Source: Tritonibacter horizontis (GTDB lineage: Bacteria > Pseudomonadota > Alphaproteobacteria > Rhodobacterales > Rhodobacteraceae). From it: a stretch of 64,000 nucleotides of DNA. Every line of letters begins with the position of its first letter. Position 1 is the first letter of the stretch. Under the pieces are notes generated by a model, which saw only the letters and a list, made by a program, of their open reading frames with translations, made no database searches and had not been told where the DNA came from. The stretch spans positions 62,001 through 126,000 of the forward strand of contig NZ_LPUY01000012.1 of the NCBI RefSeq assembly GCF_001518015.1, in the 5' to 3' direction. The position numbers and the translations under genes were made by a program. This document shows, in pieces, positions 55,204-63,857 of the stretch.

Positions 55204-56151
55204 ATGAATACGAACCGCCGCGTTTTTGTATCCGGGCTCGCTGCCGCAGTGACAGTGGCATCCACGACCATGGGGCGCGCTCAGGACAAGGGTTTGATTG
55301 CCATCATCACGCCCAGCCATGACAATCCGTTCTTCAAGGCCGAAGCAGTCGGCGCCGAGGCCCGCGCTCAGGAGCTGGGCTATGAAACCATCGTGCTGGT
55401 CCATGACGACGACCCAAACAAGCAGTCTGAGCTGTTCGACACGGCAATTGCCCGTGGCGCCAATGCGATCATCCTCGACAACGCAGGCGCGGATGCGACT
55501 GTGGCGGTGGTAAAACGCGCCCTCGATGCGGGCATTCCGTCTTTTCTGATCGACCGCGAAATCAAGGAATCCGGCATTGCGATCAGCCAGATCGTGTCCA
55601 ACAACTACCAGGGCGCGCAGTTGGGAGCCGAGGAGTTCGTGACCATCATGGGCGAGGAAGGCAACTATGTGGAGCTGCTCGGCCGTGAGGCAGACACCAA
55701 CGCGGGCATCCGGTCGTCGGGCTACCACGATATCATCGACCAATACCCCGATCTCGTGATGGTGGCGCAGCAGTCCGCGAACTGGTCGCAAACCGAAGCC
55801 TTTGAAAAGATGGAATCCATCCTTCAGGCGAACCCTGACATGAAAGGCGTGATCTGTGGCAACGACACAATGGCCATGGGCGCCTGGGCCGCATTGGAGG
55901 CCGCTGGCCGCAACGAAGTGATCGTTGTCGGGTTTGACGGCTCCAACGATGTGCGCGACAGCATTCTTGCGGGCGGGATCAAGGCAACCGTGTTGCAGCC
56001 GGCCTTCCGCCAGGCGCAGATCGCGGTCGAACAGGCCGATCAGTACATTCAAACCGGATCCACCGGGCTTGAGGAAAAGCAACTGATGGATTGTGTTCTG
56101 ATCAATGCCGACAATGCGGCTGATCTCGAAACCTTCGCTCTAAGCTCCTGA
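55204..56151 (+). CDS. Sugar ABC transporter substrate-binding protein (RbsB-like; probable D-apiose receptor)
   Basis: A 315-aa type-1 periplasmic sugar receptor. The N-terminus [13 protein letters not shown] is a Tat-like twin-arginine signal, cleaved near GRAQ. Lobe 1 begins [26 protein letters not shown]; sugar-contact segments are [10 protein letters not shown] near 117, [14 protein letters not shown] near 160, [19 protein letters not shown] near 218 and [14 protein letters not shown] near 238. Similar to ribose and erythritol receptors. Apiose is inferred from the linked apsD/apnL/apnO-like genes. A hairpin follows the stop. Confidence 0.85.
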
Positions 56152-56179
56152 TCTGACAAGAGTTCTGACTGAAACACAG

Positions 56180-56203
56180 GAGCCCGCCGCAGATTGCGGG
56201 CTC
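56180..56203 (+). terminator. Intercistronic hairpin after the sugar receptor gene
   Basis: GAGCCCGC (56180-56187) pairs perfectly with GCGGGCTC (56196-56203) around an 8-nt loop, followed by TTC. It lies in the 70-bp gap before the lipoprotein gene. Confidence 0.65.
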
Positions 56204-56221
56204 TTCGCGGGAGGGGTCTGC

Positions 56222-56872
56222 ATGCATCGCACGCTACATCTATCTGTCTTGTTCCTGATGTGTTTTGCGGCCCTGAACGCCTGCAAAATCGTTAAAAATG
56301 CCGATCCTGCCGAGGCGGGCCAGGCGGAAGAGGCGCAAACAGACGAGGCGCGTATGGCTCTGCTGTCGCGCCAGATCTGGGAGCCGAAGGTGCTGCCGGC
56401 GGTCGCCCAGCTTTTGGCGCCATTGCCGGATCTTCGCGCGGCCCTAGCAGAGGACGTCGATGCAGCCAGCGCGCAATATGGCTACAAACCCGAAGGGGAA
56501 GCCAGCCCCTGGAATTTCGCGGTGGCAGGGTCCGGCCGTGTCGTCGAGACCAAGATGAAAAGCCGCGCCGCCAAGGTTGAGGTCGACACCGATGGCGATG
56601 GCGCGGCGGATGTGACGCTTCAGCTCGGCCCGATCATTCGTGGCACCGCGCTGCGCGATGCGATGCCCTTCCTCAGCTTCAGTGATTTCCGGGACCAGAT
56701 CGAATTTGCAAAACTGGCCGGCGGGCTGAACAAGATGGCCCACGAAACCATCGAGATCCCGACAGAGGATCCGATTGGGCAAACCGTCACCTTTGAGGGC
56801 GTCTATACCTTCAAAGACCTCGAAAGCCGGCCAGAAATCGTTCCCACCTCTGTCACATTCGGTGCCCCATGA
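56222..56872 (+). CDS. DUF2291-family lipoprotein associated with sugar ABC transport
   Basis: A 216-aa secreted protein with a lipoprotein signal: hydrophobic stretch to LNAC, Cys20 being the lipidation site. The mature protein has a flexible acidic linker (DPAEAGQAEEAQTDEA), then a domain with WNFAVAGSGRVVETKMKSRAAKVEVDTDGDGAADV and ending QTVTFEGVYTF. It belongs to the DUF2291 group found between receptor and ATPase genes of erythritol/ribose-type importers in Rhizobiales and Rhodobacterales. Its role is unknown; an accessory periplasmic factor is likely. Its stop overlaps the ATPase start by 4 bp. Confidence 0.8.
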   Translation: MHRTLHLSVLFLMCFAALNACKIVKNADPAEAGQAEEAQTDEARMALLSRQIWEPKVLPAVAQLLAPLPDLRAALAEDVDAASAQYGYKPEGEASPWNFAVAGSGRVVETKMKSRAAKVEVDTDGDGAADVTLQLGPIIRGTALRDAMPFLSFSDFRDQIEFAKLAGGLNKMAHETIEIPTEDPIGQTVTFEGVYTFKDLESRPEIVPTSVTFGAP

Positions 56873-62228: not shown

Positions 62229-62951
62229 CTAGGACGGCGCAACCTTGAACCGGGAGTCCGCCCGGCTCAGGTGGGCTTCCAGCGCCTGTTCAGTGGCGTC
62301 CGCGTCATTGGCAGCCAGGTATTTGACGATTTCAGCGTGCTCGCTCAGCGTTGTTTCCTCGCGTCCCGACCACAACAGCAACGATGAGTGATATTCAAAC
62401 AGCCAGGTCAGCATCATCTCGGTAATCGCCTGGATAAGCGGGTTTGCCGTGATCTGCGCCAACCGCGTGTGAAAGGCAATATCCGCTTTCATGAACAGCT
62501 CTGCATTGCCAAGCTGGGCGCGCTGCGCGTCGATCAGCGCCAAAAGCTCGGCCGCATCCTTGGCTGTGCATTTTTGCGCCGCAAGCCGCGCCGTGCCGCG
62601 CTCCAGAATGTGACGGATGACCTTGAGGTGGTCGATATTGGCCGGCTCGCTCGACAACAGCAATTTTGCGATATCGTCGAGCTGGCTAAACGCTACCCCC
62701 GCGGTCAGTGCGTTCACGCGGCTGCGGCCGCCATGAGTGATCGTGATCAGCCCCTTGCTTTGCATCGCCTGCAAGGCCTCGCGCACCGCAGGGCGACCGA
62801 CGCCGAACCGCTCCATCAGGACCCGTTCAGAGGGGACCACATCGCCGGGGGCAAGCTCCCCACTGGCGACCATTTCACGCAAACGTTCAAAAACCTGATC
62901 GGACAGTTTCAGCCGGACAATTTTGTTATCTTGCGGGCTTTGTTCGTTCAT
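62229..62951 (-). CDS. GntR-family (FadR subfamily) regulator of the apiose cluster
   Basis: A 240-aa regulator. HTH about 12-75: VFERLREMVASGELAPGDVVPSERVLMERFGVGRPAVREAL (overlapping family form), wing THGGRSRV. FCD effector domain from about 95 with FHTRLAQITANPLIQAI, typical of carboxylate-binding members. It follows the apnO-like gene on the same strand with 78 bp between, and converges on apnL with a 15-bp gap. Likely binds TTGnnnACwGGTnnnAyrAG sites at 55108, 62993 and 63901. Confidence 0.86.
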   Translation of the reverse strand: MNEQSPQDNKIVRLKLSDQVFERLREMVASGELAPGDVVPSERVLMERFGVGRPAVREALQAMQSKGLITITHGGRSRVNALTAGVAFSQLDDIAKLLLSSEPANIDHLKVIRHILERGTARLAAQKCTAKDAAELLALIDAQRAQLGNAELFMKADIAFHTRLAQITANPLIQAITEMMLTWLFEYHSSLLLWSGREETTLSEHAEIVKYLAANDADATEQALEAHLSRADSRFKVAPS

Positions 62952-62992
62952 GTTGCGTCAGGTCCCTTGCAGATCTGATGCGATACTAGAAC

Positions 62993-63013
62993 TTGTTCAC
63001 TGGTCCTACAAGT
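62993..63013 (+). promoter_or_regulatory. Operator-like element between apnO-like and gntR genes
   Basis: TTG-TTC-ACTGGT-CCT-ACAAGT. The core ACTGGTCCTACAAGT (62999-63013) is a 6-3-6 near-palindrome. It is 41 bp before the gntR start, suggesting autoregulation. Confidence 0.5.
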
Positions 63014-63029
63014 GGCTTGGCGCCGGGTC

Positions 63030-63857
63030 TCATGTGATCCGCTCGATGCTTGCCGCGATCTCTTCGGGTTCAAAGACGCGTTTCCAGTCATCGCGCATCA
63101 GGACGGGTTTGCCGAATTCCATCGCCTTGTTGCAGGCATCGGAAAAGACGCCGTCAATTTCGCCAAAAATCACCGCTCCCAGGATGTTCATATGGCCCAG
63201 CAGAAAATCGCGTGCCGCTTCTTTCGGGACGCCACGACTGACAACTTCGTCCATGGCCTCGCGCATGATGTCCAGCAGCGAGGCGCAGACCGTTTCAGAC
63301 AGCCCCGGCTCAAGCAGCGCCATCTGTTCGACGGTGACACGGTGGGACCGCGCGACCGGGGCGTAGATGGCTTTGCCAACGGATTCCCCCAAGGCATAAT
63401 CGGTCTCCGGCCCTTGCATCAGTGCGTTTACGATGCCTTGTTGCGCCGCCACACCGCCGAAATGATCCTTGCGTCCTGCTTCGGTCGTCTCGTCGTTAAA
63501 GATCGGCGGATGGCACGGATGGCTGACGAAATAGGTGACATCGGCGCGCTTCGGCAGATGCCCCGCAAATGGCGCCGCCGCATCAAGACAGATGATCATT
63601 GCGCCGGATTTCACCTTGTCGATGATACCTTCCGCGACCTTGCCGATAGCGGTGTCCGGCACCGCCAGAACGATGACATCGGCGTCTTTCAGGGCGTCAT
63701 CCGTGGCCTGGCATTCGAACCCCAGCTCGGCCTTCAGGCGCTGTTTGCCGATCTCCGACACTTCGACATGTGCGGTTTCGAAGTCCGTATTCACAAGGTT
63801 GCGTGAAAGGCGAACACCCATTTTTCCGCCAGCCCCGAATAATGCGATTTTGGTCAC
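63030..63857 (-). CDS. apnO: Probable D-apionate oxidoisomerase (ApnO-like), 6-phosphogluconate-dehydrogenase-fold enzyme
   Basis: A 275-aa NAD-dependent enzyme: Rossmann motif IALFGAGGKMGVRL (4-17), VIVLAVPDTAIGKV near 72, VSHPCHPPIFND near 110 and a helical C-terminal domain of the phosphogluconate-dehydrogenase/ketopantoate-reductase type. This combination matches ApnO, which oxidises and isomerises D-apionate to 3-oxo-isoapionate. I chose the GTG at 63857 (GGGAG upstream) because homology starts there; an ATG at 63890 adds 11 residues without conservation. Probably co-transcribed with gntR. Confidence 0.75.
   Translation of the reverse strand: MTKIALFGAGGKMGVRLSRNLVNTDFETAHVEVSEIGKQRLKAELGFECQATDDALKDADVIVLAVPDTAIGKVAEGIIDKVKSGAMIICLDAAAPFAGHLPKRADVTYFVSHPCHPPIFNDETTEAGRKDHFGGVAAQQGIVNALMQGPETDYALGESVGKAIYAPVARSHRVTVEQMALLEPGLSETVCASLLDIMREAMDEVVSRGVPKEAARDFLLGHMNILGAVIFGEIDGVFSDACNKAMEFGKPVLMRDDWKRVFEPEEIAASIERIT

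Follow-up and report, generated by a model that had tools for sequence, protein, structure and literature searches.

A probable D-apiose uptake and breakdown cluster in Tritonibacter horizontis with a RuBisCO-like protein outside the OiaX clade

The right-hand end of a 64,000-nucleotide stretch of Tritonibacter horizontis DNA (contig NZ_LPUY01000012.1, positions 62,001 to 126,000; hereafter the window) carries a sugar-type ATP-binding cassette (ABC) importer chained to a dehydrogenase and a 572-aa protein, with a GntR regulator and an enzyme of phosphogluconate-dehydrogenase (PGDH) fold facing them, which raises the question of what sugar these genes serve and how its breakdown ends. A first-pass annotation, made from the sequence alone, had read them as an oxidative D-apiose route with its own importer. 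This claim gained support from the score of the 572-aa protein, ApnL, against a D-apionate lactonase model (677 bits), from OiaK-like and RuBisCO-like genes in the right flank and from a ten-gene set that recurs in other genomes; together with the two genes past the right edge, the cluster looks like a complete D-apiose uptake and breakdown set of a known pathway kind. We give a probability of about 0.78 to a self-contained D-apiose regulon consisting of the importer, ApsD, ApnL, ApnO, OiaK, a transcarboxylating RuBisCO-like protein (RLP) and a NanR-like regulator acting at two operators. The pathway type itself is known; new are a conserved operator and a reading of the last step that, though still a guess, is better supported than the one from annotation.

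Gene content and recurrence of the cluster

Eight genes had been placed in this cluster at first pass, and all eight were confirmed in position by the open reading frame (ORF) list and in domain content by Pfam (Table 1), as were their chaining and the facing regulator and PGDH-fold genes. The importer, ApsD and ApnL genes form a chain on the plus strand, and the GntR and ApnO genes lie on the minus strand, converging on them. Within the chain the ATPase gene overlaps the DUF2291 gene by 4 bases, the permease gene the ATPase gene by 1 base and the ApnL gene the ApsD gene by 4 bases, with gaps of 70 bases between receptor and DUF2291 and 10 bases between permease and ApsD. The automatic ORFs open earlier for ApsD (TTG at 59380) and ApnL (TTG at 60153) and extend to 63890 for ApnO, where GTG at 63857 gives 275 aa. 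The Oia genes, predicted to lie just past base 64000, were found there: an OiaK-like kinase gene, whose TTG start is preceded by AAGG, overlaps an RLP gene by 4 bases. The RLP seems to be the last gene of the cluster, as the domains of the genes scanned to its right (glycosyltransferase-like, oxidoreductase, dihydropyrimidinase and others) are unrelated.

Read as one route, the importer would take up D-apiose, ApsD would oxidize it to D-apionolactone, ApnL would open the lactone to D-apionate, and ApnO would oxidize and isomerize the product to 3-oxo-isoapionate, which OiaK would phosphorylate. The RLP would then cleave 3-oxo-isoapionate 4-phosphate with its carboxylate moved and hydrolysed (OiaT-type), giving 3-phosphoglycerate and glycolate; in the less favoured OiaX-type alternative, plain decarboxylation would give L-erythrulose 1-phosphate. 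The NanR-like GntR protein would repress the genes at two operators. This sequence of reactions and both RLP activities reportedly come from Carter et al. 2018.

The first-pass annotation had likened three enzymes to ApsD, ApnL and ApnO, and searches bore this out to different degrees. For ApnL, the D-apionate lactonase model NF049900 was the sole NCBIfam match, spanning residues 5-560; Pfam gave no family, and a sequence search gave no solved relative. An AlphaFold model of this protein (14-sequence alignment; pLDDT 86.6) has a beta-sandwich plus a barrel. In Foldseek it came closest to GH36 alpha-galactosidases (E down to 4e-12), ahead of GH97, GH101 and mutarotase-like entries. With TM-scores of about 0.3 and, where the whole chain was matched, a root-mean-square deviation of about 20 A, the kinds of domain alone are credible. 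The ApsD-like and ApnO-like proteins have close relatives with generic names: 5uhw and four sister PDB entries, named only Oxidoreductase protein, for the former and 5t57 for the latter. NCBIfam scans of the window proteins matched no ApsD or ApnO model, and we infer the two names from the first-pass annotation and gene context. An ApsD-type gene adjoins ApnL here and in 12 further loci (L004-L009, L011, L012, L016-L018, L227), and the ApnO-like gene is conserved across related clusters.

The importer's substrate is predicted from a relative. The receptor is about 79% identical to that of the Rhizobium etli CFN42 apiose cluster (RHE_RS26605), whose translation equals the sequence of PDB entry 5ibq over the mature part; 4ry0 matched equally. 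Entry 5ibq was reportedly solved with D-apiose as ligand. An ordinary ribose importer that adjoins unrelated dehydrogenases by chance would account for the resemblance of receptor, ATPase and permease to ribose transporters, and the R. etli receptor is labelled a probable ribose ABC transporter in the PDB. We regard this as extremely improbable, for the ribose scores of these importer parts in NCBIfam lie far under the cut-offs (156 of 337, 497 of 745 and 270 of 398) and the genes stay together as a set in different genera and families.

Ten genes, counting the two in the flank, recur in identical order and orientation in another genome of the host genus (L186, which is the same contig as L016), in Ahrensia kielensis (L017/L188) and in Pelagimonas (L018); because the set, order and orientation recur in three other genomes, the grouping is not a matter of chance. 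The full set is also present, in rearranged order, in Roseibium, Phyllobacterium, Salipiger, Martelella, Paracoccus and Rhizobium, and in the SC52 cluster the importer is absent from the stretch compared. The Roseibium aggregatum plasmid cluster (L004) and that of Phyllobacterium zundukense (L011) have the other nine genes alike, and their RLPs, 56% and 53% identical, belong to the type found here, but they differ in gene order, with ApnO beside the importer and the RLP ahead of the kinase. Salipiger profundus (L005) and Martelella mediterranea (L007) have the operator in common with the window, and their importer, ApsD, ApnL, ApnO and kinase are 48-85% identical to those here; their RLPs, in contrast, are OiaX, at 774 and 782 bits. 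Within the host genus the RLP and ApnL co-occur in the same 3 of 18 genomes, and the ApnL model has matches in 19 of 387 genomes of the class (3 of them above cut-off) and in none of 14 control genomes.

The R. etli CFN42 p42f cluster (RHE_RS26635-RHE_RS26570) shares NanR, kinase, ApnO (73% identical), receptor, DUF2291, ATPase, permease, ApsD (67%) and ApnL. It differs in its RLP, which is of the OiaX decarboxylase type and 40% identical to the RLP here, and in carrying TIM, an RpiB isomerase and DhaK/DhaL, none of which is in the present cluster. The RLP gene of this cluster, RHE_RS26630 (L227:1812-3107), is annotated OiaX and lies within a full D-apiose cluster that includes TIM and RpiB. 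This RuBisCO-like gene has been tied to biotin-independent growth and CO2 fixation, with its neighbours called ribose transport (PMC8914248, in part); the apiose-cluster setting gives an alternative reading of the mutants described in that paper.

Table 1. Features of the cluster, in window positions (L002 is the flanking DNA; window position = L002 position + 53999).
Feature	Position	Strand	Evidence and remarks
Operator 1, GTCAACAGGTATGATGAG	55109..55126	-	Ends 77 bases before the receptor gene; overlaps TTGACA at 55122; perfect ACWGGTATGATRAG match
Periplasmic sugar-binding receptor, CUT2 ABC importer (D-apiose predicted)	55204..56151	+	Peripla_BP_4; 493 bits to 5ibq/4ry0
DUF2291 lipoprotein, importer accessory	56222..56872	+	PF10054, 164 bits
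Sugar ABC importer ATPase, two ABC domains	56869..58410	+	Pfam ABC_tran; NCBIfam
Sugar ABC importer permease	58410..59471	+	PF02653 (BPD_transp_2); nearest NCBIfam model ribose permease, 270 bits, cut-off 398
ApsD-like D-apiose dehydrogenase (Gfo/Idh/MocA)	59482..60498	+	Pfam GFO_IDH_MocA; 5uhw series, 478 bits; 67% identity to R. etli gene
ApnL, putative D-apionate lactonase, 572 aa	60495..62213	+	NF049900, 677 bits, cut-off 750; AlphaFold model
GntR/FCD regulator, NanR subfamily, presumed cluster repressor	62229..62951	-	PRK03837, 272 bits, cut-off 260; NanR 6on4, 126 bits
ApnO-like D-apionate oxidoisomerase, PGDH fold, 275 aa	63030..63857	-	PF16896 (PGDH_C), 242 bits; 5t57, 433 bits; 73% identity to R. 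etli
Operator 2, GACAACTGGTATGATAAG	63904..63921	+	Between divergent apnO and oiaK; overlaps TTGACA at 63902
oiaK-like four-carbon acid sugar kinase, first 25 bases (TTG start)	63976..64000	+	Gene end 65289, beyond window
OiaK-like kinase, whole gene	63976-65289 (L002:9977-11290)	+	NF042436, 428 bits, cut-off 700; PF07005+PF17042
RLP, 421 aa, wholly outside window	65286-66551 (L002:11287-12552)		PF00016; NF042437 (OiaX) cut-off 700; 3nwr, 359 bits

A shared operator

A 14-base core, ACWGGTATGATRAG, built from the two near-identical 18-mers of the cluster, has two perfect matches in the 4.86-Mb genome, both at this cluster, and the reversed pattern has none in that genome. The sole match with one mismatch (contig C48) was dropped, since it lies inside a 470-aa ORF. 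Among 97 relative loci (95 distinct places, as L016/L186 and L017/L188 overlap), none of which supplied the pattern, 53 carry sites at one mismatch or fewer, 71 in all, of which 36 are perfect. Most of these sites (61 of the 71, in 49 loci) lie at most 300 bases upstream of a pathway gene; 20 shuffled patterns run on the same loci gave 13 sites altogether, 2 of them so placed. The operator is common to both RLP endings: non-OiaX loci have such sites, and so do all six OiaX loci of the set. When up to three mismatches were allowed in its 18-base form, three matches were found in the window, the third (62371) inside the regulator gene; because 3 of 100 shuffles gave as many, perfect and one-mismatch sites alone were used. 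A possible third, weaker operator between the regulator gene and apnO (near 62998), with four mismatches by eye, is not claimed.

Each operator copy in the window overlaps a TTGACA, which suggests repression. The regulator, with Pfam GntR and FCD domains, scores above the cut-off of the NanR-subfamily model PRK03837 (272 against 260 bits) and is likely the repressor, predicted to act at both ACWGGTATGATRAG operators. The sequence GGTAT, part of the E. coli NanR motif, is also present in the operator. No paper on an apiose operator appeared among the matches listed in the literature on apiose genes and regulators, where the motif itself was not searched for. The operator outlines a regulon and can help to find genes still missing from it, for instance those of an apiosidase or a second importer; in Rhizobium johnstonii it did so.

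The RuBisCO-like protein and the last step

The first-pass annotation had left open which Oia enzyme ends the route. Against the OiaX model NF042437, the best NCBIfam match of the RLP, the protein scores 385-386 bits, where the OiaX cut-off is 700. Relatives detected with this model at E 1e-80 or better occur in 55 of 395 genomes of the family; their scores leave a clean gap, with 10 genomes at 751-785 and every other place at 469 or less. Named proteins divide in the same way: those named OiaX (L005, L007-L009) score 774-782, and six named non-OiaX RLPs score 411-472. A 144-row RLP tree groups the 16 OiaX rows in a single clade (support 100), which the remaining rows surround; the tree was made by a quick method with midpoint root only, and its deep branches are weak.

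The residues follow the split. At RLP positions 101/299/301, all 16 OiaX rows read G/Q/Q, and the 128 non-OiaX rows read N/H/H in 124 cases, N/Q/H in 3 and G/H/H in 1. The RLP here has N101, H299 and H301, and its N101, H301 and K308 align opposite the N, H and K of RuBisCO 8dht, which we take to be spinach N123, H327 and K334. The CO2-handling residues of RuBisCO (equivalents of N123, H327 and K334) are thus all present in the RLP, K308 being kept in OiaX too, and this serves as a consistency check rather than a published criterion. K153, a KDDE motif and H268 are retained in both RLP types.

The isomerases offer a separate line of evidence. L-erythrulose 1-phosphate, the product of the decarboxylase, is said to need a TIM-type and an RpiB-type isomerase. 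The genes of both isomerases are found inside the OiaX cluster of R. etli, between the kinase gene and apnO. Two TIM-family genes occur in 10 of 10 genomes with an above-cut-off OiaX, compared with a second TIM-family gene in 3 of 46 genomes with only a non-OiaX RLP (Fisher p 8e-9, relatedness ignored). The 46 comprise 45 genomes of the 395-genome survey plus G010, and are defined by presence of the RLP, not by apiose use; a fourth double match among them, G696, was discounted because its two matches are neighbouring pieces of a single gene. Another set, of 27 genomes, overlaps in part with these; in it the OiaX genomes G019 and G411 have two TIMs, the second at most 10 kb from the RLP, and two TIMs were found in 1 of 12 genomes with a non-OiaX RLP (G385). 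Relatives of the R. etli TIM occur in 3 of 100 loci scanned (L227, L189, L190), all OiaX. In the host a single TIM (C77) and a single RpiB-family gene (C54) were found, both on other contigs and neither on the cluster flanks, so that the OiaX partners, a second TIM-family gene and RpiB beside the usual TIM, are incomplete there. With no second TIM in the host, L-erythrulose 1-phosphate would be left without an obvious isomerase.

As judged from its sequence, the RLP here lies outside the OiaX decarboxylase clade. We favour the transcarboxylase/hydrolase ending because of the non-OiaX clade and score, the RuBisCO residues kept and the lack of a second TIM-family isomerase in the host; the last step is probably transcarboxylation and hydrolysis to 3-phosphoglycerate and glycolate. 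Decarboxylation and transcarboxylation/hydrolysis have been reported for the RLPs of Agrobacterium K84 and Xanthobacter, respectively, and the activity of the Xanthobacter autotrophicus protein is that proposed here (PMC6302742, in part). These results yield a rule to separate the two RLP endings of D-apiose breakdown, namely the residue signature plus the presence of another TIM-family gene; annotation gives the non-OiaX proteins compared here the generic name RuBisCO large subunit family protein. As the nearest proxy to Xanthobacter, which we place in the same family, Ancylobacter has an RLP of the non-OiaX type in loci that also carry ApnL. RLPs around the Ancylobacter genome, found in 13 of 119 genomes, are 44-53% identical to the RLP here, with none at the roughly 40% of OiaX.

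The same D-apiose pathway might instead end in a divergent decarboxylase, giving CO2 and L-erythrulose 1-phosphate with the isomerases encoded elsewhere in the genome. OiaX being the best NCBIfam match of the RLP (386 bits) would fit this, as would the one TIM and one RpiB-family gene on other host contigs and the name given to the last enzyme in LCG007. LCG007, also of the Rhodobacteraceae, carries five named apiose enzymes and grew on D-apiose; the five names match those here, with the last enzyme named decarboxylase, EC 4.1.1.121 (PMC11747546, in part). We nevertheless consider a divergent decarboxylase unlikely, as the score is far below 700 with a clean gap between the two score sets, the RuBisCO-like N and H are retained, and no second TIM-family gene was found in the host or in 42 more of the 46 such genomes.

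Several findings weigh against a D-apiose regulon with a transcarboxylating RLP. ApnL, OiaK and the RLP all score under the curated NCBIfam cut-offs; they are best taken as family-level relatives rather than certified equivalogs, and genomic context carries the argument. No OiaT model was matched in the NCBIfam scans of the RLPs, and the case for OiaT is indirect. The decarboxylase name in LCG007 stands on the other side, although it derives from annotation by similarity (PMC11747546, in part). H299 stands opposite Q in RuBisCO 8dht and one non-OiaX row has G at 101, so two of the three positions are telling. The three non-OiaX genomes with a second TIM (G602, G782, G784) run counter to the isomerase rule, as do four of seven flanked OiaX loci (L005, L007, L008, L009), where relatives of the R. 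etli TIM and RpiB are both absent from the stretch compared. In addition, 44 of the 97 relative loci have no operator copy at one mismatch or fewer. Some loci with non-OiaX RLP rows lack ApnL, which shows that this type of RLP extends beyond the full apiose route.

Two further groups of RLPs were observed. Loci L143-L149, from Ancylobacter-family genomes, form a separate RLP clade, 44-46% identical to the RLP here and with KPN for KPS, which could serve another branched-sugar route. Yoonia sediminilitoris has two non-OiaX RLP loci in one genome (L019, L026), with RLPs 70% and 61% identical to that of the host.

Apiosidases, half clusters and habitat

On pRL12 of R. johnstonii 3841 a perfect operator (L009:13563) precedes an ABC importer operon (L009:13563-19406 with the operator), in which the protein encoded at L009:16795-18312 has a Pfam Apiosidase domain (PF13204, 73.5 bits) along with DUF5060; this operon may encode an apioside importer and an apiosidase that share the regulator. 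A metagenome-assembled genome of Terriglobia, an acidobacterium, has at L078:146-3712 an Apiosidase-domain gene (381 bits), with a signal-peptide-like start by eye, beside NanR and a non-OiaX RLP, and one-mismatch operator sites at both ends of this locus, one of them at the start of the Apiosidase-domain gene. tblastn with these two apiosidase-like proteins found relatives in 8 of 103 loci (queries included), 7 of them with non-OiaX RLPs; the domain is Pfam-confirmed in L009 and L078 only. The same search found none in the window or on L002/L003, the rest of the host genome lying outside it.

A rival substrate would be a branched sugar related to apiose, for example D-hamamelose. An oxidative D-hamamelose route ending in an RLP has been described in Ochrobactrum (Kim et al. 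2018, as cited in PMC8914248, in part), the enzyme logic is similar, and this broad RLP type is present in loci without ApnL. We hold such a substrate to be very improbable for the cluster here, since ApnL matches the D-apionate lactonase model, the operator is common to Rhizobium-type apiose clusters and the apiosidase-bearing operon, and apiosidase-like genes occur in 7 loci with this RLP type among the 103 scanned (one of the 7, L078, Pfam-confirmed).

By locus content, 86 non-OiaX rows divide into 21 with ApnL, 44 with ApnO and no ApnL of at least 35% identity, and 21 with neither; contig ends truncate some of these loci, and in the middle group two, L014 and L056, do match ApnL, at 33% and 31%. 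Half clusters of ApnO, kinase and RLP, with no ApsD or ApnL in the stretch compared, adjoin tripartite ATP-independent periplasmic (TRAP) transporters in L019, L022, L025, L031, L035 and L084, in Yoonia, Pseudohalocynthiibacter, Sulfitobacter, Halomonadaceae and Limnohabitans. Of nine loci without ApsD and ApnL that were compared, four supplied five proteins to a Pfam test, giving TRAP components in L019, L022 and L035 and an ABC permease in L027; the TRAP calls in L025, L031 and L084 are by eye. Many genomes carry just this acid half under the same operator, some beside a TRAP transporter. Such loci look suited to uptake of an acid, possibly D-apionate or a different branched sugar acid, instead of the sugar itself.

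A wider view, which we offer tentatively and at somewhat less than even odds, is that the RLP here represents a large unnamed majority type that would handle CO2 as RuBisCO does, with release and recapture in one active site, and would end several branched-sugar routes. OiaX would then be a derived offshoot that lost recapture along with two RuBisCO residues, hence its extra isomerases, and the acid-half clusters would imply that both sea and soil offer free branched sugar acids, D-apionate for one, as nutrients.

The nearest named relatives are from Ahrensia and Pelagimonas, both marine genera, and the idea of a marine or seagrass carbon source for this cluster is circumstantial. Apiose is a component of the pectin rhamnogalacturonan II (RG-II) and of aquatic monocot walls (PMC11747546 and PMC6302742, both in part), so the cluster would mark use of a plant wall sugar. 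On a Croceibacterium plasmid (L010:1-13089), an RLP and a kinase lie amid a GH127 beta-L-arabinofuranosidase, an alpha-L-fucosidase, beta-galactosidases and GDSL esterases, a gene company that reminds of an RG-II degradation locus.

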